Assembly: GCA_026399075.1 (NCBI GenBank)
Contig: JAPLRR010000026.1
Location: 1 to 64,000 of the forward strand
Source: Methylococcales bacterium
Lineage (GTDB): Bacteria; Pseudomonadota; Gammaproteobacteria; Methylococcales; Methylomonadaceae
Length of the DNA: 64,000 bases
Direction of reading: 5' to 3'
The translations under genes were made by a program, and so were the position numbers. Below, in pieces: positions 2,048-51,438 of this stretch. Position 1 is the stretch's first letter; each line of letters begins with the position of its first letter. The notes under the pieces are model-generated. The model was given only the letters and a program-made list of their open reading frames with translations. It did no database searches and had not been told where the DNA came from.

Positions 2048-3532
2048 TTACATTAATCTGGCCAGTATCACCGATATACAGACACCACCCAAAGCTGATG
2101 CGGTCGCGTTGATACTGCCATTATGTGCGTCGGCGATATTACGGCAAATTGCCAAGCCTAAGCCAGCACCGCCCAATTGCCGCTGGCGCGAACGGTCGGT
2201 ACGGTGGAAGCGATCAAACAGCAAGGGCAGCTCAGCCTCTGCCACACCCGGCGCACTATCTTCGATACGGATGAGGGCTGTGCCTTGCTGTTGGCTTAAG
2301 GTCACTTGGCAACTGCCGCCCGCATCGGTGTAGCGAAAACTATTTTCCAGCAAATTGTTGATCAATTGTGCCAAGCGCATGGTGTCGCCGTTGATCATCA
2401 CTGCCGCAGGGGGATAGTTTAGGCTAAGCCGGATGTTTTTGCCGTTAAACCGGGCTTGGAAAGTCCCGATAATGTGTGTCAGCAATTGCCCCAGTTCAAG
2501 CCGCTCAAATTGATAATCCAATGCGCCCAAGTCGGATAGCGATAATTGGTATAAGTCATCAACCAAACGCGTTAGCCCCATCACTTCCTGATGCAGGGAG
2601 TTTATCCGTTCGGGTGTGGGGGTGCGGATACCATCCACCAAGGCTTCCAATTCGCCGCGCAATACGGCCAAGGGGGTGCGTAATTCATGGGAAATATCGG
2701 CTAACCATTGCTGCCGGGTGTGTTCACTGTGCGCCAAGGTGCGGCCCAAGAAATTAAAGTCTTGGGCCAAGGCAGCCAGTTCGTCATGCCCCCGGTCGGG
2801 AATTTGGGTGCTATAGCGACCTGCCGCCAACGCTTGCATGCCTTTGGTTACGCGCCGTAATGGCCGTAAAATTTGCCGCGCCATCAACACAGCCATTAAA
2901 ATCGAAAACAGCAAGGCAAAGCCCAAACGCCACAAATTGCCGTTTAGTTGCTGGTGCATGAATTCTGTCACCAGATGGTCGGTAATCAGGGTATTGGGCG
3001 TCACCAACAACAAGCCGATAGTTTGTCCTTGGCTTTGTATCGGCAAAGTTAAATCACCCTCGGACTCTTGCGGTATAAAGGGTGGGCCGTTTATCTTTTG
3101 GCCATCTTGGTCAAAAATAAATAAGCGGTCTATATCCAATAGATACGCATCCTTGTGGGGCCGATGGTGTCTAGGGGGAGGCCGATGACGGTTCCCGGGC
3201 AGGGGGCCGTCATCGGCAAAAGGTGGCTGATCGCCAAGTGAGGGTGGGGGTTGTAGCTCGGCTGCCAGTGGGTATTTGGCAACCGCAGAATGTGCCAACC
3301 ATTGAAACCAGGCACGGGGGTTGTTTTGCAGGCCGTCCCAACTGCCGTGTTGCCCGTAATAATCACCTAACTGTACGACCAGTTGCTCTAATTTTTCCTG
3401 TTCGCTGTTTTGCAAATAGGTGGCTAGCCCCTGTTTGAAGTTCAAATGCAAGGTTAACACCGTTGAACTCAGCAATAACAGCATCCCTAAAAACAGCAAC
3501 AAAAACAGTTTGGCAAATAATTTTAGTTTCAC
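2048..3532 (-). CDS. baeS: BaeS-like membrane sensor histidine kinase
   Basis: This is the partner kinase of the BaeR-like regulator. Residues 8-30 and about 202-220 form two membrane helices that frame a periplasmic sensor loop of ~170 residues. They are followed by HAMP (about 220-272), the phospho-acceptor H282 in ADISHELRTPLAV, and an ATPase domain with N, G1 (DSAPGVAEAE) and GLGLAI motifs. The kinase core is BaeS-like. The sensor loop carries a proline/histidine-rich stretch (about residues 100-128, with many P, H and R), which could bind a metal. That last point is only a guess from composition. A Shine-Dalgarno site is not obvious, and the start is the first ATG of the frame. Confidence 0.87.
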   Translation of the reverse strand: MKLKLFAKLFLLLFLGMLLLLSSTVLTLHLNFKQGLATYLQNSEQEKLEQLVVQLGDYYGQHGSWDGLQNNPRAWFQWLAHSAVAKYPLAAELQPPPSLGDQPPFADDGPLPGNRHRPPPRHHRPHKDAYLLDIDRLFIFDQDGQKINGPPFIPQESEGDLTLPIQSQGQTIGLLLVTPNTLITDHLVTEFMHQQLNGNLWRLGFALLFSILMAVLMARQILRPLRRVTKGMQALAAGRYSTQIPDRGHDELAALAQDFNFLGRTLAHSEHTRQQWLADISHELRTPLAVLRGELEALVDGIRTPTPERINSLHQEVMGLTRLVDDLYQLSLSDLGALDYQFERLELGQLLTHIIGTFQARFNGKNIRLSLNYPPAAVMINGDTMRLAQLINNLLENSFRYTDAGGSCQVTLSQQQGTALIRIEDSAPGVAEAELPLLFDRFHRTDRSRQRQLGGAGLGLAICRNIADAHNGSINATASALGGVCISVILARLM

Positions 3533-22703: not shown

Positions 22704-23531
22704 ATGACCTCTCCTGTATTGGGCGCAATCACGGTCTATCCCGTAAAATCATTGGCCGGCATTAACGTCAGCTGTTGGCCGGTCACTAAAACAGGTTTGC
22801 AGTACGATAGAAAATGGATGCTGGTAGATGGTGACGGCCAGTTTTTAAGCCAGCGGCAACTGCCAAAAATGGCCTTGATTAAAACCGCGCTGACCGACAC
22901 GCATTTAGTGCTTGCTGCGCCAGCGATGCCCGATTTGTTGGTGCCATTGGTTCCGCCAGCAGCCAGTGATTTGATTAGCTGCACAATATGGCACGACCAA
23001 TGTGGTGCGCTGGGTGTTTCTATTGAGGCTGACCAGTGGCTAGGGCAATTTTTACAGCACGATTGCCGTTTGGTTTATCAGGCCGATGACAATAACCGCA
23101 AAGTTGACCCGCTTTATAGCGTGGATGCTGACCGTACGGCCTTTTCTGATGGCTTCCCTTTTTTGCTGATAGCCGACAATTCTTTGGCGCTATTAAACCA
23201 ACAGATGCAGCTTAATTTGTCTATGGCGCGTTTTAGGCCAAATCTTGTCGTTTCGGGCTGTCCTGCTTACGCCGAAGACAGCTGGCGCGAAATCAACATT
23301 GGGGCTATCGGTTTCCGGCTACCAAAGCCGTGCTCGCGTTGCGCTATCCCTACGCTAGACCCTGAAACGGCTCTAGGGGGCAAAGAGCCGCTGGCGACAC
23401 TGAACCGGACAAGAAAATGGCAAAATAGTGTGTATTTTGGCCAGAATGCTTTGCATAACCAAACCGGCGTGTTATCGGTCGGGGATGTGGTGGAAGTAAC
23501 GGTTATCGGGGAAAATCAACCACCGATTTAG
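22704..23531 (+). CDS. MOSC domain protein (YcbX-like)
   Basis: The N-terminal beta-barrel (ITVYPVKSLAGINV and GLQYDRKWMLVDGDGQFLSQ) and the C-terminal MOSC domain are both present. The conserved cysteine lies in KPCSRCAIPTLDPETALG, and RFRPNLVVSG is another family signature. MOSC proteins carry molybdenum cofactor or handle sulfur, and YcbX-type proteins reduce N-hydroxylated compounds with an electron-donor partner. Unlike YcbX, this protein has no C-terminal ferredoxin domain (275 residues against ~370), so it would need a separate donor. It is followed by a candidate sigma54-dependent small RNA. Confidence 0.85.
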   Translation: MTSPVLGAITVYPVKSLAGINVSCWPVTKTGLQYDRKWMLVDGDGQFLSQRQLPKMALIKTALTDTHLVLAAPAMPDLLVPLVPPAASDLISCTIWHDQCGALGVSIEADQWLGQFLQHDCRLVYQADDNNRKVDPLYSVDADRTAFSDGFPFLLIADNSLALLNQQMQLNLSMARFRPNLVVSGCPAYAEDSWREINIGAIGFRLPKPCSRCAIPTLDPETALGGKEPLATLNRTRKWQNSVYFGQNALHNQTGVLSVGDVVEVTVIGENQPPI

Positions 23532-23546
23532 CTAAGCGCTTATTCC

Positions 23547-23600
23547 CTAAGCACTTAACCCCGCACCAACTTGGTAAATAATTGGCGTATTAAGTGCTTT
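23547..23600 (+). promoter_or_regulatory. Possible activator site upstream of the small RNA
   Basis: GCACC-N5-GGT at 23563-23575 matches most of an NtrC half-palindrome (GCACC-N5-GGTGC) and lies ~140 bp before the predicted start. It is flanked by an inverted pair, TAAGCACTTAA (23547-23557) and TTAAGTGCTTTA (23589-23600). No TGT-N10-ACA NifA site was found here. Confidence 0.4.
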
Positions 23601-23682
23601 ACAACAGGGCAAAAAATCGCATCGTCAATAAAAAAATCGATCAAACTGGGCTATAACCCTTATCTGGCGGGCTTTTCGTATA

Positions 23683-23699
23683 TTGGCACGGCATCTGCT
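23683..23699 (+). promoter_or_regulatory. Sigma54 -24/-12 promoter of candidate small RNA
   Basis: TTGGCACGGCATCTGCT fits YTGGCACGrNNNTTGCW with one mismatch in the -12 element. GG (23685-23686) and GC (23697-23698) are exactly ten bases apart. The predicted start is near 23710. Confidence 0.7.
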
Positions 23700-23709
23700 T
23701 GCTATATTA

Positions 23710-23769
23710 CAAACGCTTGTTCTCTCCTGTGTTATCACTCAAAGGCACTGACTTCAGTGCCTTTTTTTT
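23710..23769 (+). ncRNA. Candidate sigma54-dependent small RNA A
   Basis: The predicted transcript of ~60 nt runs from the sigma54 promoter to a perfect terminator: AAAGGCACTGA, a CT loop, TCAGTGCCTTT (23741-23764), then T residues to 23769. Its 5' half is unstructured and holds TTGTTCTCTCCTGTG, complementary to an AGGAG-type ribosome site. CTCTCCTGTG recurs exactly in the second candidate upstream of nafY, which also has a sigma54 promoter and T8 terminator. There is no open reading frame. The downstream gene, rmuC, is convergent, so this is not an mRNA leader. Confidence 0.6.
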
Positions 23770-23775
23770 GCCCTT

Positions 23776-25104
23776 TTATTCAAGCGGATCATGGTCGCTG
23801 ATACCGGCTTGTTCAGCCAAACTTTTGGGGATGGTTTTTTTAACTTTAACCCCTAGCTCAACAAAACTGTTGGCTTGGCGGATCAAGTTGCCTTGGCCTA
23901 GGGTGAGTTTGTTCATCACGCCGTCATAGGTACTATGGACGGTGCTTAGTTGCTTACCGAGTTTTTCTAGCTCTTCGACAAAACCGCGTAGCTTGTCGTA
24001 AACCACGCTGGCTTTTTCGGCGATGGCTTTGGCGTTTTCGTTTTGGCGCTCGTAGCGCCAGATATTTTCTATGGTGCGTAGCGTGGCAAGTAATGTGGTG
24101 GGGGTCACGACAATGATATGGTGCTCAAAAGCGTCGGTAAACAAGCGCTCATCCGCCTGAAAGGCTGCGATAAACGCCGATTCTATGGGGATGAACAACA
24201 AAACAAAATCAATGGTGCGCAAGCCTTTGAGGTTGGGGTAGTCTTTGCCGCTTAAGGTTTTAATGTGGCTACGCACGGCTTCGGTGTGTTGCTTTAGGGA
24301 AAGCGCCCGTTCCTTGTCATCATCACTCGCACAATAGTGTTCGTAGGCGACCAAGGACACTTTGGAATCGATGATGATGTCTTTGTTTTCTGGCAAACGG
24401 ACGATCACATCGGGCTTGAACAGTTTGTTGTCCGCATCCCTAAATGCCCCTTGGGTTTCGTATTCTATGCCTTTGCGCAAGCCCGATTTTTCCAGCACGG
24501 TTTCTAAGATCATCTCGCCCCAGTTGCCTTGGGTTTTTTTGTCGCCTTTCAGGGCACGGGTCAGGTTTAGGGCTTCTTCGTTCATTTTTGCCGTATCGCG
24601 CCTGAGCGAAATAATTTCTTCGCGCAGTGAGATGCGGTCTTTGTTCTCATTGTCGTAAACGGTTTCCACACGGCGCTTGAATTCACCCAGTTGTTCGCGC
24701 AAAGGGCTTACGATATGGTCTAGGCTGGTTTTATTGTGCTCAACAAATTGCTGGTTGCGCTCTTCAAAAATCTTGCTGGCCAGGTTTTCAAATTGCTGGC
24801 TTAGGCGGGTTTCGGCATCTTGCAATAAGCTGAGTTTTTCTTCAGTGTTTTTGGCTTGTTCACTTAGCCGGGTTTGTAACTCAACATTATGGGTTTTCGT
24901 TTCATGATAGTGTTGTTGCAACTGCTTGAATTCTGCTGCTAACTGCTGTTGGGCCTGTAACCTTTCGGTGGCAATGACAAGTTTAGTGCTTAATTGGCTC
25001 AATTGTGCCTTATCTTTTTGGGCAAGTAGGCGCGTGATTAACGCGCCTACCACTAACCCAATTAACCCCCAAACCCAAGGTGGCAAGTGGATAACTGCAT
25101 CCAT
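23776..25104 (-). CDS. rmuC: DNA recombination protein RmuC
   Basis: RmuC limits recombination at inverted repeats and has a restriction-endonuclease-like core. The 442-residue protein has an N-terminal membrane helix (VWGLIGLVVGALITRLLA), a long coiled coil (about 30-190) and the nuclease-like domain with GNWGEMILETVLEKSGL, KPDVIVRLP and IIDSKVSLVAYE. FVLLFIPIESAFIAAF is a family hallmark. Its start overlaps the hemL stop by one base (TAATG), so both are translated from one message. The end is convergent with the small RNA at 23710-23769. Confidence 0.92.
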   Translation of the reverse strand: MDAVIHLPPWVWGLIGLVVGALITRLLAQKDKAQLSQLSTKLVIATERLQAQQQLAAEFKQLQQHYHETKTHNVELQTRLSEQAKNTEEKLSLLQDAETRLSQQFENLASKIFEERNQQFVEHNKTSLDHIVSPLREQLGEFKRRVETVYDNENKDRISLREEIISLRRDTAKMNEEALNLTRALKGDKKTQGNWGEMILETVLEKSGLRKGIEYETQGAFRDADNKLFKPDVIVRLPENKDIIIDSKVSLVAYEHYCASDDDKERALSLKQHTEAVRSHIKTLSGKDYPNLKGLRTIDFVLLFIPIESAFIAAFQADERLFTDAFEHHIIVVTPTTLLATLRTIENIWRYERQNENAKAIAEKASVVYDKLRGFVEELEKLGKQLSTVHSTYDGVMNKLTLGQGNLIRQANSFVELGVKVKKTIPKSLAEQAGISDHDPLE

Positions 25105-33859: not shown

Positions 33860-33915
33860 TGGGTTTGGCAGCGTAGGTATAACCCTGAAATTTTAATAAT
33901 ACTAGGAGAAATAGC

Positions 33916-34323
33916 ATGGCAAAAATAGATGAAGTTTTACAAGCTGTTGTATCAAATGTAGATGGTGCTTTAGGTTGTGCAGTGGTTGACTTAAACTCAG
34001 GTTTGTTGATGGGTGCTGCCCATAACGTACCTTATTTTACGTCTTCTTACCTGGAAGCGGTGGCAGCGGCGGCTGTTGACATGCTGCGCGGTAAGAATGT
34101 CCGCGCTGTGGAGTCATTATTGTCCACCCAACGCGGCAAAACCGTAGAAAAAACTATACAAGAAATTCAAATGACCACAGAAAAAACCTTGCATTTTATG
34201 GCTGTGGTTAAAGATAAGCCCGATTATGTTATTGTGTTGATCACCAGCAAAGCGACTAACTTGGGCATGGGATGGGCGGCGGTGCGCAACAATATGCCTA
34301 AAATTTCTCCGCTCTGCCCCTAA
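33916..34323 (+). CDS. Roadblock/LC7 domain protein
   Basis: The 135-residue protein is a single roadblock fold: IDEVLQAVVSNVDGALGCAV, VDLNSGLLMG, and later LHFMAVVKDKPDYVIVLITS. Roadblock proteins dimerise and act as GTPase-activating partners of MglA-type GTPases in polarity, motility and conservon systems. Its place directly after the GTPase is the classical arrangement. AGGAGAAA at 33903-33910 is a good ribosome site. A GC-rich hairpin at 34350-34380 follows and could end part of the transcripts before the next gene. Confidence 0.82.
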   Translation: MAKIDEVLQAVVSNVDGALGCAVVDLNSGLLMGAAHNVPYFTSSYLEAVAAAAVDMLRGKNVRAVESLLSTQRGKTVEKTIQEIQMTTEKTLHFMAVVKDKPDYVIVLITSKATNLGMGWAAVRNNMPKISPLCP

Positions 34324-42386: not shown

Positions 42387-43436
42387 ATGTATAAACGTAT
42401 CCTGGACCATCTAAATACCGCCATTTTATTATTTGACCGTGAATTAATACTCACCTTTATTAACACGACAGGCGAGATTTTGTTGGCTGACAGCTCACAT
42501 CATTTGGTTGGGCATAGTGCAGATGAATTGTTCAAGTCATCTGACCCCGCCTTATTGGTTAATTTAAAACAATCTTTAGCGATGGCGGAACCATTGGTTG
42601 ACCGTGCCTTAATACTAAGCCGCATGACCCACAACGTCACCATAAATTTTAGTGCGACCCCTTTGTTAGTTGATGAACAAGTCAATGAAATATTAGTTGA
42701 ACTGCAACAGGTCGATAACCATTTGCGCATCTCCAAGGAAGAGCAATTACTAACGCAGCAAAATACGGCAAGGTTATTGGTTAGGGGATTGGCCCATGAA
42801 ATAAAAAATCCTTTAGGTGGCTTACGGGGTGCTGCACAGCTATTGGATTTGGAGCTGGAGGATCCAGAGCTTAAAGAATACACCCAAATTATTATCGCCG
42901 AGTCAGATCGTCTACAAGGCTTGATGGACAAAATGCTGGGGCCTAACAAGTTGCCGAACAAAAAGGCACTTAACATCCATGAAGTCTTGGAACGGGTAAG
43001 GCAGTTGGTCCAAGCCGAATCCAGCGGCAGCATCACCATCAAAAATGACTACGACCCCAGTATCCCTGATATTTATGCGGATAAAGACCAACTGATCCAA
43101 GCCATTTTGAATATCGCCAGAAATGCCGTGCAAGCAATGGAAGGAAAAGGCCCCATTATATTTAAAACCCGCATCCATCGGCACATGAGTGTAGGACGCA
43201 AACGGTATAAATTGGCGGTCAAATGCGACATTATTGACAGCGGGCCAGGCATTGATGCCAACATGATGAGCCAGATATTTTACCCGATGATTACCGGCAG
43301 GGCTGAAGGCACTGGGCTAGGTTTGTCGATTGCCCAAGCGCTGATTAATCAGCACAATGGCTTGATCGAATGCAATAGTGAACCGGGGAAAACGGTATTT
43401 TCAATATTTTTACCTATGGAGACTGGCAATGACTAA
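42387..43436 (+). CDS. ntrB: Nitrogen regulation sensor kinase NtrB
   Basis: NtrB (GlnL, NRII) phosphorylates or dephosphorylates NtrC depending on nitrogen status relayed by PII. The 349-residue soluble protein has an N-terminal PAS domain (YKRILDHLNTAILLFDRELI), the phospho-acceptor histidine in GLAHEIKNPLGGLRGAAQLL, the N box (LNIARNAVQAME), G1 (DSGPGIDAN) and GTGLGLSIAQ. These are all NtrB signatures, with IKNPLGG the best. A sigma54-like promoter lies 41-57 bases upstream, and ntrC starts 8 nt before its stop. The pair lies next to nafY and the nif regulators. Confidence 0.94.
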   Translation: MYKRILDHLNTAILLFDRELILTFINTTGEILLADSSHHLVGHSADELFKSSDPALLVNLKQSLAMAEPLVDRALILSRMTHNVTINFSATPLLVDEQVNEILVELQQVDNHLRISKEEQLLTQQNTARLLVRGLAHEIKNPLGGLRGAAQLLDLELEDPELKEYTQIIIAESDRLQGLMDKMLGPNKLPNKKALNIHEVLERVRQLVQAESSGSITIKNDYDPSIPDIYADKDQLIQAILNIARNAVQAMEGKGPIIFKTRIHRHMSVGRKRYKLAVKCDIIDSGPGIDANMMSQIFYPMITGRAEGTGLGLSIAQALINQHNGLIECNSEPGKTVFSIFLPMETGND

Positions 43437-44844
43437 GTCCGATACGGTTTGGGTCGTTGATGACGACAAATCTATACGCTGGGTGGTTGAAAAGGCTTTG
43501 CAAAAGGCCGGAATTATTACACGCAGCTTCTCCACCGGCAAGGAACTGTTGGTGGCACTACAAGATGGCTTACCGGATGCCCTGATAACAGATATACGGA
43601 TGCCTGGAATGGACGGCTTGGAGCTGTTGGACAGGGTTCAACGCAGCCACCCCGCCTTGCCTGTCATTGTTATGACCGCACACTCTGATTTGGAAAGTGC
43701 TGTTTCGGCATTCCATGGTGGGGCTTTTGAGTATTTGCCTAAACCGTTTGATATTAAAGAAGTTGTCAATTTGGCGCAACGGGCTTGTATCCATGGGCGG
43801 CAACAGCAAGATGACGCCCACCGCGCGGCTTCTACAACGCTTGAGCCGACACCAGAAATTATTGGTGAAGCACCGGCAATGCAAGAGGTTTTTAGGGCCA
43901 TAGGTCGGTTGGCGCGATCACACATCACTGTGCTTATCAATGGTGAGTCCGGGACAGGCAAGGAATTGGTGGCTAAAGCCCTACATCGGCACAGCCCAAG
44001 GGCTAAAAACCCGTTCATTGCATTGAACATGGCGGCCATCCCAAAAGACCTGATGGAATCCGAACTGTTCGGTCATGAAAAAGGTGCTTTTACCGGCGCA
44101 CAAACACGCCGTGCAGGACGCTTTGAACAAGCCAATGGCGGCACATTGTTTCTTGATGAAATCGGGGACATGCCTGCAGAATTGCAAACCCGATTGCTGC
44201 GGGTGTTGGCTGATGGCGAGTTTTATCCGGTTGGGGCGCACTTGGCTGTCAAAGTTGATGTGCGGATTATTGCCGCAACGCATCAGGATCTTGAAACCTT
44301 GGTAAACCAAGGCCGTTTTAGGGAGGATTTGTTCCATCGCTTAAACGTGATCCGTATCCACATTCCGGCCTTGCGCGAGCGCAAGCAAGACATTCCTTTG
44401 CTCCTGCGCCATTTCTTACAACAGGCCGCTTCTGAACTTGGCGTGGAAATGAAAATCCTTCGGCCTGAAGCGGAAGCATTTCTCAGTACGCTAGAGTGGC
44501 CGGGTAATGTCCGGCAATTGGAAAATAGTTGTCGTTGGTTGACAGTGATGGCATCAAGCAGGGAAATTCATTTGCATGACCTACCCCCTGAATTACTGAG
44601 TTCTTCACCGGAAAAAGAAGTGGTTGTAACAGGCTGGGAAACGATGTTGAGAAGCTGGGTAGACCAGCAATTAACGGCCAAGTCCGCAGAAGTTGCCAAA
44701 CAGACCATTCCAGCCGTTGAAGCGATTTTAATTAAGGCGGCCTTAAGCCATACCCACGGCAAGCGTCATGAGGCAGCCATTTTGTTGGGCTATGGACGAA
44801 ACACCCTGACCCGTAAAATAAAAGAGCTGGGTATAGAAGACTAA
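43429..44844 (+). CDS. ntrC: Nitrogen regulation response regulator NtrC
   Basis: NtrC is the sigma54 enhancer-binding activator for nitrogen-limited growth. The start at 43429 overlaps ntrB by 8 nt and gives [20 protein letters not shown], as in the family. The receiver has the phospho-acceptor in [15 protein letters not shown] and the lysine in YLPKPFD. The AAA domain has Walker A (GESGTGKE), GAFTGA for sigma54 contact and FLDEIGDMP. The C-terminal Fis-type helix-turn-helix is [20 protein letters not shown]. The length of 471 residues is normal. It likely controls ntrBC itself and possibly the small RNA at 23.7 kb. Confidence 0.95.
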
Positions 44845-44938: not shown

Positions 44939-45652
44939 CTAACAGCCTTCATCATGGGTAAACCGCACACGTTCCTCAGCCGAGCGGCCTAGGGCTTTGG
45001 CAAACCATGGCGGTGGCGCTAAAAACACTTTTTGGAATTCCTGTAAGTGCTCAGTCGCCTCAGCAACGTCAGGTATCTTGATCGGATAAATATCAGCACG
45101 TATCACCTTGGCCGCCGCTGGCCCACCAATAGATTGCACAAACAAGACGTGGCAGTCTTTTATCAAGTTTGCCCGGAACAAGTTCCTGTCATCGCTGCTG
45201 TCAGCTTCAATGGTAGAACGTATGTCAATCAACCGATAATCATCCTGCGTCAATTGATAAACTAAGAAACGGATACAAGAGCCAAAGTGCCCGTTAATCA
45301 ATGCGCCGCTGTTTGAGCCGATGGCGACGCGGATTGAGTCCTGCATATCGCCCTCTTTATAAGGCAGTATTTCCGGCAGATCTTCATCTTCGGCTTCATC
45401 GCCCCATAGATAACGCACGGCCAATTTTATATTGGCAAGGCCGATACCAATGTCCTCGCCATCTTCCTCGCCATCCAGGCTGCCTAGCCCGGTTTTCAGA
45501 TTGGTGACGGTGATGGCTTTCAGTTTTTCATCATCCAAGGGTGAGCCTACCCGCTCATGTAAAATGCCAAGTAGCCTAGGGATGTCAATGCCGGGTAAGA
45601 TACGCGAAGCCAAGGCTATGCGCAGGGCTAGTTCACGGGGTAAGGCTTCCAT
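44939..45652 (-). CDS. nafY: Nitrogenase cofactor-binding protein NafY
   Basis: NafY (the gamma protein) binds the iron-molybdenum cofactor and apo-dinitrogenase during nitrogenase maturation. The 237-residue protein has both NafY parts. The N-terminal helical domain carries LALRIALASRILPGIDIPRL and LAVRYLWGDEAED. The C-terminal NifX/NifB-like domain carries INGHFGSCIRFLVYQ, whose H122 corresponds to the cofactor-binding histidine, and VQSIGGPAAAKVIRA. CCAGGAGAAT before the ATG is a strong ribosome site. Upstream lies a sigma54 promoter and a hairpin-terminated leader, so it is expected to be expressed with nif genes. Confidence 0.93.
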   Translation of the reverse strand: MEALPRELALRIALASRILPGIDIPRLLGILHERVGSPLDDEKLKAITVTNLKTGLGSLDGEEDGEDIGIGLANIKLAVRYLWGDEAEDEDLPEILPYKEGDMQDSIRVAIGSNSGALINGHFGSCIRFLVYQLTQDDYRLIDIRSTIEADSSDDRNLFRANLIKDCHVLFVQSIGGPAAAKVIRADIYPIKIPDVAEATEHLQEFQKVFLAPPPWFAKALGRSAEERVRFTHDEGC

Positions 45653-45871: not shown

Positions 45872-45951
45872 AAAAAAAAGCGCCCTAGCCGAGAAATTAG
45901 GGCGCCAAAGGTACCAACCACAGGAGAGCAACATAAGATAAAAGGGTTACA
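45872..45951 (-). ncRNA. Candidate sigma54-dependent small RNA B or nafY leader
   Basis: From the predicted start near 45951 the minus-strand transcript runs ~80 nt to a terminator: GCGCCCTA, loop, TAGGGCGC (45880-45905), then T8 (45872-45879). Its single-stranded part carries GTTGCTCTCCTGTGGTTGG. CTCTCCTGTG also occurs in small RNA A at 23722-23731 in the same position, ahead of a terminator with T8. The motif pairs with AGGAG sites, including the nafY ribosome site CAGGAGA about 215 nt downstream. It may be free or an attenuated leader of nafY. Confidence 0.6.
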
Positions 45952-45961
45952 ATAATTTATA

Positions 45962-45978
45962 AGCATTATCAGTGCCAT
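45962..45978 (-). promoter_or_regulatory. Sigma54 -24/-12 promoter upstream of nafY
   Basis: On the minus strand ATGGCACTGATAATGCT has GG (45976-45975) and GC (45964-45963) ten bases apart, with TGGCAC at -24 and TGCT at -12. The predicted start is near 45951. Confidence 0.7.
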
Positions 45979-46081
45979 AAATAAATATATTTGTTAAACA
46001 ACCAGTTATCATGTTTAATCGCTTTAAATTGTAGGGAAACGCACCAAGGATAACCACTACTTGCAAAAGGCGTCCTACATT

Positions 46082-46097
46082 TGTGCGATTTCCTACA
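46082..46097. promoter_or_regulatory. NifA upstream activator site (TGT-N10-ACA)
   Basis: TGTGCGATTTCCTACA matches TGT-N10-ACA exactly. It is centred ~139 bp upstream of the predicted start at 45951, inside the usual range for NifA-activated promoters. It overlaps the short gap after the gene at 46112. Confidence 0.65.
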
Positions 46098-46111: not shown

Positions 46112-46681
46112 CTAAATCGCACCGACAGCGGCTTCTTTAACAACCACAAAAGTATAGGTTTCCGCCTCAGCAAATGTTGCTGGGGTTGCTTTTGCATCAT
46201 AAGATTTTGCAGCCTCGTAAGCGATGGCCACTTTATCTTCAGGGGATTTACCTTTGAGTTCACTTTTTTCGATATACAACTCTTCCAGCAACTCATTCCA
46301 AACCAACCCTTGTTTGAAGGGAAGCAATTTATAAGTCACACCTTCCAGTTCAATTTGCAGCCTTTTGGAAATATTTTCGATATAAAGTAACGCGATACAG
46401 TCAGCGGCAATGTCGGCTTTATATTTGTCCACCAAAACAGGCAACAGATCTAGCGTTGGCAACAGACCGTTAAGAAATTTAATTTTGTCGTTTTCTATGA
46501 TTAGTGCGGAATGGATCAATAGGGATTCGGGTGGTTTGCGGTCAGTAGTCGAACCTTCGCGCAGGGCACCTTCTTTTAACACCAAATCGCCACGGTACGC
46601 ATAGATGCCTTGGTCGCTAGTTTGGCCATTCACCAAAGTGACTGTCAGTAAGCCTTTGTCTTGATATGTTTCTAGTAGCAT
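46112..46681 (-). CDS. nif-coregulated protein of unknown function
   Basis: I do not recognise this 189-residue protein. It starts MLLETYQDKGLLTVTLVNGQ and has no signal peptide, membrane span or cysteine cluster (one cysteine in AADCIALLYIENIS). The end is alanine-rich. GGAG in the leader (CTGGAGAATC, minus strand) is a good ribosome site. A strong sigma54 promoter lies 100 bp upstream with two NifA-type sites beyond it, which ties it to nitrogen fixation. It stands between nafY and the nifA gene. A role in nitrogenase maturation, protection or electron supply is an inference from position and promoter only. Confidence 0.7.
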   Translation of the reverse strand: MLLETYQDKGLLTVTLVNGQTSDQGIYAYRGDLVLKEGALREGSTTDRKPPESLLIHSALIIENDKIKFLNGLLPTLDLLPVLVDKYKADIAADCIALLYIENISKRLQIELEGVTYKLLPFKQGLVWNELLEELYIEKSELKGKSPEDKVAIAYEAAKSYDAKATPATFAEAETYTFVVVKEAAVGAI

Positions 46682-47398: not shown

Positions 47399-48946
47399 TT
47401 AAATTTGTTTCATGGTAATGTCCAAGGTCATAATGCGGTAGGCGATTTGCCTAGGGGTCATATTCAACAAACGGGCGGCCTTGGCTTGTACCCAACCGCT
47501 TTGCTCCAAGGCGGCAATTACCCGTTCACGGTCATCCAAGTTTTCGTCATTAAAATCGATTGCTGGCACTTTTGCAGGTTTATGGCTGATGCCTGCGCCG
47601 ATTTCATCTTCCAGTCCCGTGCTAACCATGACATCGCGGTCAATGATGCCATTAGGACTCATGATGGCGGCACGCTCCAAGCGGTTGGCCAGTTCCCTGA
47701 CATTGCCGGGCCAATCATGTTTCATCAATATCCGTATGGCGCTTTCTTTGATTTCCAGCGGCCGCCCACCTTGCTGGGCTGAAATTCTGCCGAGCAAAAA
47801 TTCCGCCAGCTGGGGAATATCCTCAGTCCGCTCCCGCAGGGTGGGCATTTGGATAGGCATGACATTGAGCCGGTAATATAAATCTTCCCTAAACTTGCCT
47901 TCGGTGACTTCCTCTTCAAGGTTGCGGTTGGTCGCGGCAATGATCCGCACATTCACTTTTATCGTGTTGGTTCCACCGACCCGCTCAAACTCACCTTCTT
48001 GCAAAACCCGTAACAGCTTGGCTTGAAATGATGCGGAAATCTCACCAATTTCATCGAGGAACAAAGTGCCGTTATCGGCAAGTTCAAAGCGGCCTTTGCG
48101 TTGGCTGACGGCACCGCTAAACGCACCTTTTTCATGGCCGAACAACTCTGATTCCAATAAGGTGTCGGGCAAGGCGGCACAATTGAGCTTTAAAAAAGGC
48201 CCACTGGCACAACCGGAATTAAAGTGGATGGCATTGGCCACAACTTCCTTACCAGTACCTGACTCGCCCCGTATCAAGACCGTAGTATTCCATTTTGCCA
48301 CTTGGCGGATAAGGTCAAACACCTTGAGCATGGGCGATGAGTGGCCGATAATGTTTTCAAAGCTGTAGTTTTTAATTAGCGCTTGCTTCAGTTGGTCGCG
48401 TTCATTTTGCAAATGGCGCTGTTTGCGCTCTATAAGCCGCAACATTTTGACGCTTTGCGCAATCAAATTGGCGATCATTTCCATAAACCGGGCACGTTCG
48501 CCCAGAAACTGGCTACTGTCAGGTTGGGCGGCCAACACGCCAATGGTGTCGCCTTTTTCAATATGGATCGGTGAACCAATAAATGGCAATTCCGGGTCAT
48601 AGAGACCCAGACGACCTAAAAACCGCGGCTCTTCCGATACTTTTTCAACCACAATGGTGCTGCCTTCATCCAAGATGGCCCCCATCAAGCCTTCTCCGGG
48701 TTGGTATCTAACCGGTTCTGCCAATTTATCGGTACCGTTGCCATTGGTATGGACGACACTGACAATCAGGCTGTTACTTTCAATTTCACGCAGTGTTATC
48801 ATCCCTGAGCGCATACCTGACCTTTTATGCAGTATCTCTAAAACCGCCTGTAGTTTTGCGTGCAGATCATGGGTGCTGTTTAACACTTGGCTGATGAGGT
48901 ACAAAGTATCCAGTTCGGCTTCGATGAGTTGGATTCGCTCAGGCAT
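47399..48946 (-). CDS. nifA: Nif-specific transcription activator NifA
   Basis: NifA drives sigma54 promoters of nitrogen fixation genes. The 515-residue protein has an N-terminal GAF domain (about 20-170), a sigma54-activation AAA domain with Walker A (GESGTGKE), GAFSGA in place of GAFTGA, and FLDEIGEIS, and a C-terminal Fis-type helix-turn-helix (QAKAARLLNMTPRQIAYRIM). It lacks the cysteine-rich linker of oxygen-sensitive alphaproteobacterial NifA, which fits control by NifL. Its start overlaps the nifL stop (TAATG), so the pair is coupled. Confidence 0.95.
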   Translation of the reverse strand: MPERIQLIEAELDTLYLISQVLNSTHDLHAKLQAVLEILHKRSGMRSGMITLREIESNSLIVSVVHTNGNGTDKLAEPVRYQPGEGLMGAILDEGSTIVVEKVSEEPRFLGRLGLYDPELPFIGSPIHIEKGDTIGVLAAQPDSSQFLGERARFMEMIANLIAQSVKMLRLIERKQRHLQNERDQLKQALIKNYSFENIIGHSSPMLKVFDLIRQVAKWNTTVLIRGESGTGKEVVANAIHFNSGCASGPFLKLNCAALPDTLLESELFGHEKGAFSGAVSQRKGRFELADNGTLFLDEIGEISASFQAKLLRVLQEGEFERVGGTNTIKVNVRIIAATNRNLEEEVTEGKFREDLYYRLNVMPIQMPTLRERTEDIPQLAEFLLGRISAQQGGRPLEIKESAIRILMKHDWPGNVRELANRLERAAIMSPNGIIDRDVMVSTGLEDEIGAGISHKPAKVPAIDFNDENLDDRERVIAALEQSGWVQAKAARLLNMTPRQIAYRIMTLDITMKQI

Positions 48947-50553
48947 TAGATTCCCCTTTTAGCGGTCTGCTTGTGCAATGGAAAGCTTATTTTTACCCGG
49001 CAACCCTGATCGTAATCAGGGTCTATTTCAATAAAACCTTGGTGCTGGTTAATAATCTCCTTGGCCATAACCAGGCCCATGCCAGCTTGGTTGCCGCCCA
49101 TGGGGCGTGTGGTGTAAAAAGGCTCAAACACTTTGGCGCGTTTTTCCAGCGGGATGCCAGGGCCGCTATCCTCAATACAAACATAGACCAATTCGGAATC
49201 TGTTTCGGTGGCTATTTTAAGCCGCTGTTCACCACTCTCATTGGTGCTTAGCGCATCAATGGCATTGTCTATCAATTGCTTAAATAAAATGCGCAAGCGA
49301 TTTTCTGAGCCCAGCATGGTCGGCAATTCGGGTAGCGGGCACCAATGCACTTCAATGTCTAAACTTAATAATTTTTGTTCGCTGAGCAATAGCACTTCGT
49401 GCAGCAATTGGTTTAGGTTGACGGGAATAACCGCTGTTTGCAGTATCTCAGGAATGCAGTTTTGCATGGTGCTTATTGCGGCTTCCCCTGATTGCTGGAT
49501 TTGTTGCAAACTATCCAGCAGGCCTGTGTGTTGTGCTTCGCCTTTGTGCTTCAATAATTGCTCGGCCGCCCTAATTTGGTTCATTGGCATTTGGATTTGG
49601 TGCATGGCACCCAGCAAGGTTTCCCGGATGCTGCGCACCCGTTCGTCTTCAGCCATCGTGGTTTTTAATGACTGGATATGGAGTTCCTCCATCTGCCTGC
49701 GTTGCCGGGTGATGTCGGTTATAGTCAGGATGAGGTACTGTTTGGAAGTGTTCTCAAAAAAAGCGTCGGCATTAACTTCGTTCTCAACAAACCAGTTGCC
49801 CGCACAGGAAAACCAGCGGGTTTTCCGTCTGCCCTTACCTTCTAATTTGAACTCCCGGTTGTTAAAACCCTGACCGTTCTCTTGGGTAAGTTGCCATAAA
49901 GGGCCCATTTCATCGCGCAATAGCTGCAAAAAATAGCCTGCAGGCTCCCCCCTATCCAAATCACTGACCAAGGCTTTATAGTTGTGGTTATCTAAAATAA
50001 CCCTATCTTTGTCATCAATAACGACCATGGCAATAGGCGAGGAATTGATAACCGATTCAATCAGCAGTTTTTGGTTAATAACCCTTTTTTCAGACTCATA
50101 GGCCTGGGTAATATCCCTGTGCATACCGATGTAATGGGTGATTGCGCCTTGGTCATTGAGCATAGGGGCTATTGTCAGCTCTGACAGATAGCGTTGTCCC
50201 GACTTATGGCGATTGCACAATTTGCCATGCCATATCTTTTTTGCACTTATGGTGTACCACAAATCGTAGTAAACGGATCGCGGGGTGCGTTTATCCGATA
50301 AGATGGATTCGTTCTCACCCAATATATCAGCAGGCTGGTAGCCTGTGACCTTGGAAAAGGCTTCATTGACGTAAAGGATATTGGCCTTTTTGTCGGTGAT
50401 TGATATGGCTATTGGCACTTGCTCAACCGCTTCAACAAACAAGTTGTAAGGTATTTTGTTGAACCCTTCCCCAAATAAATCAGGAGCCATTTCATCAATA
50501 ACGTTCGCGAGGTTAGTATGCGACTGTAAAAAGTGTAATGAAGTTTTTTTCAT
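48946..50553 (-). CDS. nifL: Nitrogen fixation regulator NifL
   Basis: NifL is the redox- and nitrogen-responsive antiactivator of NifA. The 535-residue protein has PAS1 (about 35-150, AISITDKKANILYVNEAFSK), which binds FAD in the family, PAS2 (about 165-290) and a C-terminal histidine-kinase-like domain (GAMHQIQMPMNQIRAAEQL, DNAIDALS, DSGPGIP and GMGLVMAKEI). GENESILSDKRTPRSVYYDL and WYTISAKKIWHGKLCNRHKS match the NifL/Aer PAS type. It shares its operon with nifA and is divergent from rnfA, with a common regulatory region. Confidence 0.94.
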   Translation of the reverse strand: MKKTSLHFLQSHTNLANVIDEMAPDLFGEGFNKIPYNLFVEAVEQVPIAISITDKKANILYVNEAFSKVTGYQPADILGENESILSDKRTPRSVYYDLWYTISAKKIWHGKLCNRHKSGQRYLSELTIAPMLNDQGAITHYIGMHRDITQAYESEKRVINQKLLIESVINSSPIAMVVIDDKDRVILDNHNYKALVSDLDRGEPAGYFLQLLRDEMGPLWQLTQENGQGFNNREFKLEGKGRRKTRWFSCAGNWFVENEVNADAFFENTSKQYLILTITDITRQRRQMEELHIQSLKTTMAEDERVRSIRETLLGAMHQIQMPMNQIRAAEQLLKHKGEAQHTGLLDSLQQIQQSGEAAISTMQNCIPEILQTAVIPVNLNQLLHEVLLLSEQKLLSLDIEVHWCPLPELPTMLGSENRLRILFKQLIDNAIDALSTNESGEQRLKIATETDSELVYVCIEDSGPGIPLEKRAKVFEPFYTTRPMGGNQAGMGLVMAKEIINQHQGFIEIDPDYDQGCRVKISFPLHKQTAKRGI

Positions 50554-50795: not shown

Positions 50796-50812
50796 TTGGC
50801 ATAATTGCTGCT
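50796..50812 (+). promoter_or_regulatory. Sigma54 -24/-12 promoter of the rnf operon
   Basis: TTGGCATAATTGCTGCT has GG (50798-50799) and GC (50810-50811) ten bases apart, TTGGCA at -24 and CTGCT at -12. The predicted start is near 50823, 31 bases before rnfA. Confidence 0.7.
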
Positions 50813-50853
50813 TTAGTGATTTTGAAAGTCCTTAAAACAGCCTGGAAAAAACA

Positions 50854-51438
50854 GTGAGCGAATATCTATTACTTTTATTAGGCACGGCCCTGGTCAATAA
50901 CGTGGTCTTGGTTAAGTTTTTGGGGCTATGCCCGTTTATGGGTGTATCCAAGAAACTCGATTCAGCGTTAAGCATGGGTTTGGCGACCACTTTCGTATTG
51001 ACATTGGCGGCAATGACCAGTTGGCTGCTGGAGCACTTCATTCTAGCCCCTTTTCATATCCAGTTCTTACGCATTTTGGCTTTTATTTTAGTCATTGCGG
51101 CTGTGGTGCAGTTCACTGAAATGGTAGTGCATAAAACCAGCCCCGTCCTTTACCAAATTCTGGGGATATTTTTGCCGCTCATCACCACCAATTGCGCCGT
51201 TTTGGGTGTGGCCTTATTAAATGTCCAAGAACAATATGGTTTTATGGATAGCATGATTTTTGGTTTTGGTTCGGCAGTGGGTTTTACCTTGGTAATGGTT
51301 TTGTTTGCCGGCTTACGTGAGCGCTTGGCGTTGATGGCGGTTCCGGCCTTGTTTGCAGGGACGCCGATTGCCTTTATTACGGCGGGTATTTTATCGCTGG
51401 CATTTATGGGTTTTGCCGGCCTTAACAGCAAAATGTAA
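50854..51438 (+). CDS. rnfA: Rnf electron transport complex subunit A
   Basis: RnfA is a six-helix membrane subunit of the ion-driven ferredoxin:NAD oxidoreductase. The 194-residue protein has the family opening [20 protein letters not shown] and [20 protein letters not shown], with [17 protein letters not shown] in the second half. The start is a GTG at 50854 with a weak GGAA. It is first in rnfABCDGEH and directly downstream of a sigma54 promoter with two NifA-type sites, so here Rnf is nif-controlled and most likely supplies reduced ferredoxin or flavodoxin to nitrogenase. Confidence 0.95.

Follow-up and report, generated by a model that had tools for sequence, protein, structure and literature searches.

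What is encoded in the space between the genes for a MOSC-domain protein and rmuC? The question concerns a small part of a 64,000-nucleotide stretch of Methylococcales DNA (the window), where the first-pass annotation had seen a stand-alone sigma54-driven small RNA (sRNA). We consider it very probable that the locus is an NtrC- and sigma54-driven sRNA gene of about 60 nt, here called type A, which belongs to a family with a second copy, type B, and probably acts by pairing with ribosome-binding sites on target mRNAs. The features of the locus are as follows.

22704..23531 (+): upstream neighbour, MOSC-domain protein (Pfam PF03476, PF03473)
23562..23578 (+): NtrC-like box 1, CGCACCAACTTGGTAAA, centre about -140 from the predicted start, 11/14 consensus letters
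23595..23611 (+): NtrC-like box 2, weak, TGCTTTACAACAGGGCA (TGC-N11-GCA), centre about -107, 8/14 letters
23683..23699 (+): sigma54-type -24/-12 promoter, TTGGCAY-N6-TGCT in 14/14 aligned loci
23710..23769 (+): sRNA type A, conserved predicted transcript of 60 nt, from a start placed by rule to the T run
23722..23731 (+): candidate seed CTCTCCTGTG, complementary to the Shine-Dalgarno-like CACAGGAGAG
23741..23769 (+): intrinsic terminator, from its fold and from stem pairing across loci
23776..25104 (-): downstream neighbour rmuC, convergent (Pfam PF02646; synteny)

The sigma54 promoter consensus is TGGCAC-N5-TTGCW, from which TTGGCACGGCATCTGCT at 23683-23699 departs by a single mismatch (C for T); it fits TGGCAY-N5-YTGCW, the GG lying 10 nt from the GC. 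Position 23698 is the C of the -12 GC, so that the start, placed by rule 12 nt past the promoter GC, is predicted at 23710, which makes the transcript 60 nt long when counted to the last T (23769). The terminator, AAAGGCACTG-ACTT-CAGTGCCTTT, forms a stem of 10 perfect pairs with a T run behind it, eight consecutive Ts from 23762, stem-end Ts included. The -24/-12 element at 23683 and the unit of about 60 nt ending in a perfect eight-T terminator, both claimed in the first-pass annotation, thus stand. The predicted 60-mer folds at -18.3 kcal/mol (z -4.77), and single-sequence folds of type A, examined for a 5' hairpin, disagree among loci. By itself the promoter string is within chance for 64 kb, the window containing two matches to TTGGCAYN6TGCW (0.44 expected) and one to TGGCACN5YTGCW (0.30 expected); the type A promoter rises beyond chance because it is conserved in relatives. 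The second full TTGGCAYN6TGCW match, TTGGCATAATTGCTGCT at 50796-50812 (+), lies just ahead of an ORF at 50836-51438, divergent from nifL, and is perhaps a nif-type sigma54 promoter.

When 23600-23790 was used as a DNA query against 60 relatives, it matched 13, every one a member of the same genus, and ten of these matches start no more than 3 nt from the promoter and end no more than 7 nt from the last T. Alignment of the 14 loci shows that TTGGCAY-N6-TGCT and CTCCTGTG are common to all, that the flanks diverge, and that spacer lengths differ by single bases. A covariance model, R1, built from 11 of the 14 loci (three misaligned loci were left out), finds one place per genome in 32 of the 35 genomes of the genus, 21 of the 32, the three misaligned loci among them, being outside the model; the three genomes in which R1 found no match are assemblies of 480, 750 and 950 contigs. 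The terminator is kept with compensatory changes: the 11 loci have every stem cell paired (100%) and 3/10 pairs altered on both sides; the 32 loci, in an alignment fitted to the model, have 99.7% of cells paired and 4/10 pairs so altered.

The pattern TTGGCAYN6TGCTN{20,30}CTCCTGTG was also scanned over named public genomes and returned 57 records. R1 accepts 26 of them at E < 1e-4, all titled Methylococcales, Methylococcaceae or member genera (Methylobacter, including M. psychrophilus Z-0021 and sp. KS41; Methylovulum; Methylocucumis oryzae; Crenothrix). It rejects the remaining 31, which come from many phyla and are, by rough reckoning, about as many as chance would give. Lack of conservation of promoter, seed and terminator in relatives had been named beforehand as grounds for giving up the proposal, and conservation is what we find, both in 32/35 genomes of the genus and in these 26/57 public records.

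Across the family, R1 matches 50/237 genomes in 10/29 genera at E <= 0.001. Four of 20 fetched family loci were set aside by eye: L048 and L052, which come after an apparent pqqA, L055, and L049, which lies ahead of a molybdopterin oxidoreductase gene. Three more (L054, L059, L061) are doubtful, and E-values near 1e-4 from R1, or from a further model, R2, are therefore unsafe. For R2 the training loci were 21 of the 32 from the genus and 11 of the 20 fetched from elsewhere in the family. Over the order it matches 114/311 genomes at E <= 0.001, many of them weakly; a manual count of the table gives 61 genomes in 12 genera, all of family f1, with a best E <= 1e-6, of which 32 are of this genus and one (G167) is the L049 locus, and these counts are not independent because training loci are among them. 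L049 itself (3002-3104) has a sigma54-type promoter and a terminator followed by the oxidoreductase gene and is perhaps a separate nitrogen-controlled attenuator leader; the gene product is like formate dehydrogenase or assimilatory nitrate reductase but below every NCBIfam cut-off.

Within the genus, type A has its own promoter and terminator and no co-directional downstream gene in 29/29 loci, and is thus a stand-alone unit. The next known gene on its 3' side is rmuC in 19 loci and hemL (named by TIGR00713) in 10, convergent in every case; at the remaining three of the 32 loci the contig ends before the downstream gene. As rmuC and hemL are always convergent, type A is not a 5' leader in this genus, and the earlier argument from the opposite orientation of rmuC extends to all 29 visible cases. 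One locus (L128) has a doubtful 78-aa co-directional ORF between type A and its convergent gene. On the upstream side, the nearest ORF of at least 70 aa, some of these being doubtful, points away in 17 of 30 loci and in the same direction in 13, the present locus included (two genus loci show none), so that in about half of the loci type A cannot be a 3' UTR. The MOSC-domain neighbour is not kept beside type A in relatives, tblastn having matched only its own locus among those compared.

The presumed regulators are encoded in the same window:

42387..43436 (+): ntrB (NF008293, 364.5 bits, above cut-off)
43378..44844 (+): ntrC, presumed activator (TIGR01818, 739.6 bits, above cut-off)

The NtrC site consensus is TGCACCA-N3-TGGTGCA. 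The first-pass annotation had noted one NtrC-like box about 140 bp upstream, and the genus comparison goes beyond this by showing a second. Box 1 (at least 10/14 letters) is present in 29/32 genus loci at -126..-109, counted from the promoter's first T, against 0.12 in shuffles, and box 2 (at least 8/14 letters) at -93..-77 in 28/32 against 3.74, the thresholds and windows having been picked after the boxes of this locus had been seen; seven further windows placed elsewhere in this unshuffled upstream DNA give counts of only zero to one. The spacing in the 26 loci with both boxes is 31-34 bp in 18 and 41-43 bp in eight. Type A therefore has the paired upstream TGC-N11-GCA boxes at a set distance that characterize an NtrC-activated promoter, the sites being predicted, and box centres some 140 and 107 nt upstream of the predicted start correspond to the layout of E. 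coli glnAp2. The predicted control of type A by NtrC is better supported than was first claimed. The genome also encodes hfq (PF17209, 103.4 bits, above cut-off).

A second copy is found beside the nitrogen regulators themselves.

45872..45951 (-): sRNA type B, start placed by rule; R2 match at 45873-45978, 45.0 bits
45962..45978 (-): sigma54-type promoter of type B, ATGGCACTGATAATGCT, from sequence
46040..46056 (-): NtrC-like box of type B, weak, TGGTTATCCTTGGTGCG, 8/14 letters
46071..46087 (-): NtrC-like box of type B, weak, CGCACAAATGTAGGACG, 8/14 letters

R2 returns this match alongside 23683-23769 itself, with an E-value of 9.8e-8 in the genome and 5.1e-9 in a separate search. Types A and B are alike in promoter type, NtrC-like boxes and a CTCCTG core, type B carrying the core GCTCTCCTGTGGTTGGTACC and a long terminator. 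Boxes of at least 8 letters at about -110 and about -78 are both present in 14/21 B-type loci against 0.045 in shuffles. Type B sits between an ORF at 46112-46681 and a DIMCO/NifX-like gene (44939-45652), and one or both of these two neighbours are near in 10 of the 26 loci fetched, which include A-type, B-type and doubtful ones; ntrBC, nifA (47399-48946) and nifL (48946-50553) are close by. The 46112-46681 (-) ORF encodes a 189-aa protein that is kept beside type B in several genera and has no Pfam or NCBIfam match at E <= 0.001. Type B has a hairpin with the loop UCUCCU, in which 76.1% of cells are paired and 2/5 pairs show two-sided changes in an alignment of 15 of the 21 B-type loci; these figures are overstated, since some of the six omitted loci (L056, L057, L279, L284, L285, L286) fit less well. 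One genome (G069) has two type B-like RNAs in tandem (L280:2860-2963 and 3240-3347).

A more complex arrangement is seen in other genera. At nine loci there (L045, L046, L047, L050, L051, L053, L058, L273, L276) the type A unit is on the same strand as a gene for a circularly permuted ATP-grasp protein (CP-ATP-grasp, PF14403), usually followed by an Alpha-E gene (PF04168), and its terminator lies about 47-70 nt before the CP-ATP-grasp start codon; with a co-directional gene just downstream, it is placed there as an operon leader, as it is at none of the 29 visible loci of this genus. The core in these loci resembles TTCTC(A/C)TCGTGTGTTGTACCTT. No second sigma54 promoter was seen between unit and gene in the seven of these loci read by eye (L045, L046, L047, L050, L051, L053, L058). 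In L042 and L043 the operon follows further on, behind its own sigma54-like promoter, that of L043 being weaker (TGGCGT). The 0.77 kb or so that separates type A from this promoter in L042, after 3096, looks insertion-like by eye. In the present genus a CP-ATP-grasp relative (85-91% identity) is found at another place in 24/35 genomes, and all ten such genes read are immediately preceded by a TGGCAY-N6-TGC promoter. The type A unit thus occurs in two forms, free-standing in this genus and leader-like elsewhere.

How would such an RNA act? Types A and B share a pyrimidine-rich stretch with CUCC on the 5' side of the terminator that is complementary to the Shine-Dalgarno sequence, and anti-Shine-Dalgarno pairing is the likeliest action predicted for both; CTCCTGTG is absent or changed in six of the 32 genus loci (G002, G015, G017, G019, G025, G030). 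Scanning the genome with CACAGGAGN{3,13}ATG gave eight sites against four for the reversed pattern, none of them obviously of nitrogen metabolism. Duplex energies against the 57 ORF starts of the window rank an unnamed ORF (33889-34323) best for type A; the only nitrogen gene near the top is the NifX-like one, eighth for A and tied seventh to ninth for B, and no position in this ranking is significant by itself.

Two genes came out of scans across the 35 genus genomes. With CACAGGAGAN{2,12}ATG, an identical CACAGGAGACTGTATG is found before pntA in 26/35, the name pntA resting on one member above the TIGR00561 cut-off. The site does not qualify as a proven target, for CACAGGAGACTGT stays in the five seed-changed genomes read (G002, G015, G017, G019, G030), where 33, 21, 4, 4 and 36, respectively, of 38 background sites pair at least as well as pntA. 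The corresponding figure is 18/38 for the pntA site of the present genome, AACAGGAGACTGT, and only 1/38 in four genomes with an intact seed (G005, G013, G021, G032); the background is 38 sites from fetched loci rather than a genome, and the results range from 1 to 36 of 38. G003 was left out of this comparison, its gene not being pntA. The genus g2 genome (G035) has CCACAGGAGACCGT before pntA, and there R1 finds no element and R2 finds two; the g24 genomes read have GGAAA at the pntA site.

The second gene was hit by ACCAGGAGAN{2,12}ATG, a scan intended as a composition control, which matched the 5' end of a PQQ methanol/ethanol-type dehydrogenase gene, ACCAGGAGA, in 29/35 genomes. The 29 genes were recognised by their N-terminal peptide, with one member above the TIGR03075 cut-off, and we read the gene as xoxF. 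In G004 its AAGGTACC-AGGAGA mirrors UCUCCU...GGUACCUU, the core of type B; the present genome and many others have ATACC instead of AAGGTACC, and the 5' stretch is conserved also where R2 saw type A only (G005, G013, G021). Because the likeness to the B core was noticed afterwards, and because AAGGTACC/AAAATACC does not follow the RNA, the dehydrogenase is a lead only. Neither the pntA nor the dehydrogenase site co-varied with the seed in the genus genomes, and both matches may simply reflect slow-changing 5' ends of well-expressed genes. The 5' ends of pntA (L231-L256) and of the dehydrogenase gene (L287-L315) are strongly conserved throughout the genus for tens of nucleotides, including the Shine-Dalgarno region, and are evidently under some constraint.

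A plausible scenario for type A is that, in nitrogen shortage, phosphorylated NtrC would occupy the two boxes and drive sigma54 RNA polymerase from the -24/-12 promoter. The predicted transcript would start near 23710 and end at the terminator, whose hairpin is preceded by a mostly unpaired pyrimidine stretch, CUCUCCUGUG. With Hfq, which we infer to bind it, this stretch would most likely pair with the ribosome-binding sites of targets and reduce their translation, and type B would be a second member of the family beside the nif regulators.

Several other explanations deserve consideration. That type A acts not by base pairing but as a sponge for a protein, Hfq or another RNA-binding protein, in the manner of CrcZ, would suit its pyrimidine-rich core and long U tail and the candidate targets without seed co-variation; with only some 60 nt, a single core and no repeated motif seen by eye in the alignments, we think this unlikely. 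The leader-like loci suggest another history, in which type A was originally a cis-acting leader or attenuator of the CP-ATP-grasp/Alpha-E operon and the copy in this genus is an orphan with little residual action. The nine close pairings of unit and gene, the later position of the operon behind its own promoter in L042 and L043, and the separately promoted CP-ATP-grasp relatives in this genus all agree with such a history. An orphan leader should decay, however, whereas promoter, boxes, core and terminator persist in most of the genus, and none of the B-type loci showed a CP-ATP-grasp gene just downstream; we therefore regard an orphan as quite unlikely.

Convergent genes commonly share terminators, and the promoter string alone is within chance, so that one might see here a mere shared terminator with a fortuitous promoter match, the more so as the nearest upstream ORF is co-directional in 13 loci, this one among them. 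That the promoter is nevertheless present in every aligned locus, at a near-constant distance from the terminator while the flanks diverge, and that the nearest upstream ORF, by the count given above, points away in the other 17, make this highly improbable. The slightest chance of all is given to a tiny protein. A GTG inside the seed is the only start codon common to most predicted genus transcripts (26/32), an ATG occurs somewhere in 15/32, and some transcripts have frames opening with TTG or GTG that stay open to the end, over as many as 23 codons; but frames from the common GTG are between 1 and 16 codons long, the start, the frame and the length vary by locus, and spacer lengths shift by single bases between loci. 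The initial statement that the site has no reading frame is right in substance, although mechanically called ORFs do cross 23683-23769.

The base-pairing sRNA remains our preferred explanation, and it invites a tentative and rather unlikely extension: A and B may be sister RNAs, made only in nitrogen shortage, that link NtrC to methanotroph carbon metabolism by covering the ribosome-binding sites of central methanol and NADPH genes, the A unit having moved between the leader of an NtrC-regulated operon and a free sRNA gene. Candidate pairings would be AAGGUACC-AGGAGA of the PQQ methanol dehydrogenase gene with the B core UCUCCU...GGUACCUU, and CACAGGAGA of pntA with UCUCCUGUG.

Types A and B provide a locus, a promoter, a covariance model and a second copy for work on nitrogen-response sRNAs in named methanotroph strains, among them the cultured carrier Methylobacter psychrophilus Z-0021 and Methylocucumis oryzae Sn10-6, which carries a relative of the unit. 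Type A is kept by nearly all the close relatives examined and is probably induced by nitrogen shortage, and its occurrence as a leader in some genera and a free RNA in others offers a natural series for studying the origin or recruitment of sRNA genes.

As to known RNAs, Rfam 15 gave no family at gathering threshold over the window; the best sub-threshold match, STnc40 (25 against 45 bits), was rejected, as was membership of type B in the mmgR/suhB family RF00519 (18.8 bits, E 0.12, gathering 41 bits). No description of a nitrogen-response sRNA in gammaproteobacterial methanotrophs was found in the portion of the open-access literature consulted, and our best reading of the sequences is that types A and B would form a new family, of known kind, in the Methylococcales. 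The comparisons with that kind are by described features; a further paper treats GlnZ (PMC9731577). NrsZ of Pseudomonas aeruginosa is an NtrB/C- and RpoN-dependent sRNA induced by nitrogen limitation, a control that is here predicted from sequence, but it is processed, at least 226 nt long, located in the ntrC-PA5126 spacer and carries ACAGGCAG (PMC9308961), and is set apart by this from type A, with its 60 nt or so and CUCUCCUGUG. NfiR of Pseudomonas stutzeri A1501, which is nitrogen- and Hfq-linked and targets nifD, likewise has two TGC-N11-GCA NtrC sites and a predicted sigma54 site upstream, but starts 29 bp below the sigma54 site and depends only partially on RpoN (PMC6606865). NfeR1 of Sinorhizobium meliloti shares the anti-Shine-Dalgarno seeds and the tie to NtrBC, but is transcribed from a sigma70 promoter under repression by NtrC, and it silences ntrBC (PMC10746234), whereas type A is predicted to be activated by NtrC. 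CrcZ of Pseudomonas is also an RpoN-dependent sRNA under a two-component system, and differs from type A in being 407 nt long and a sponge for Hfq (PMC9308961).
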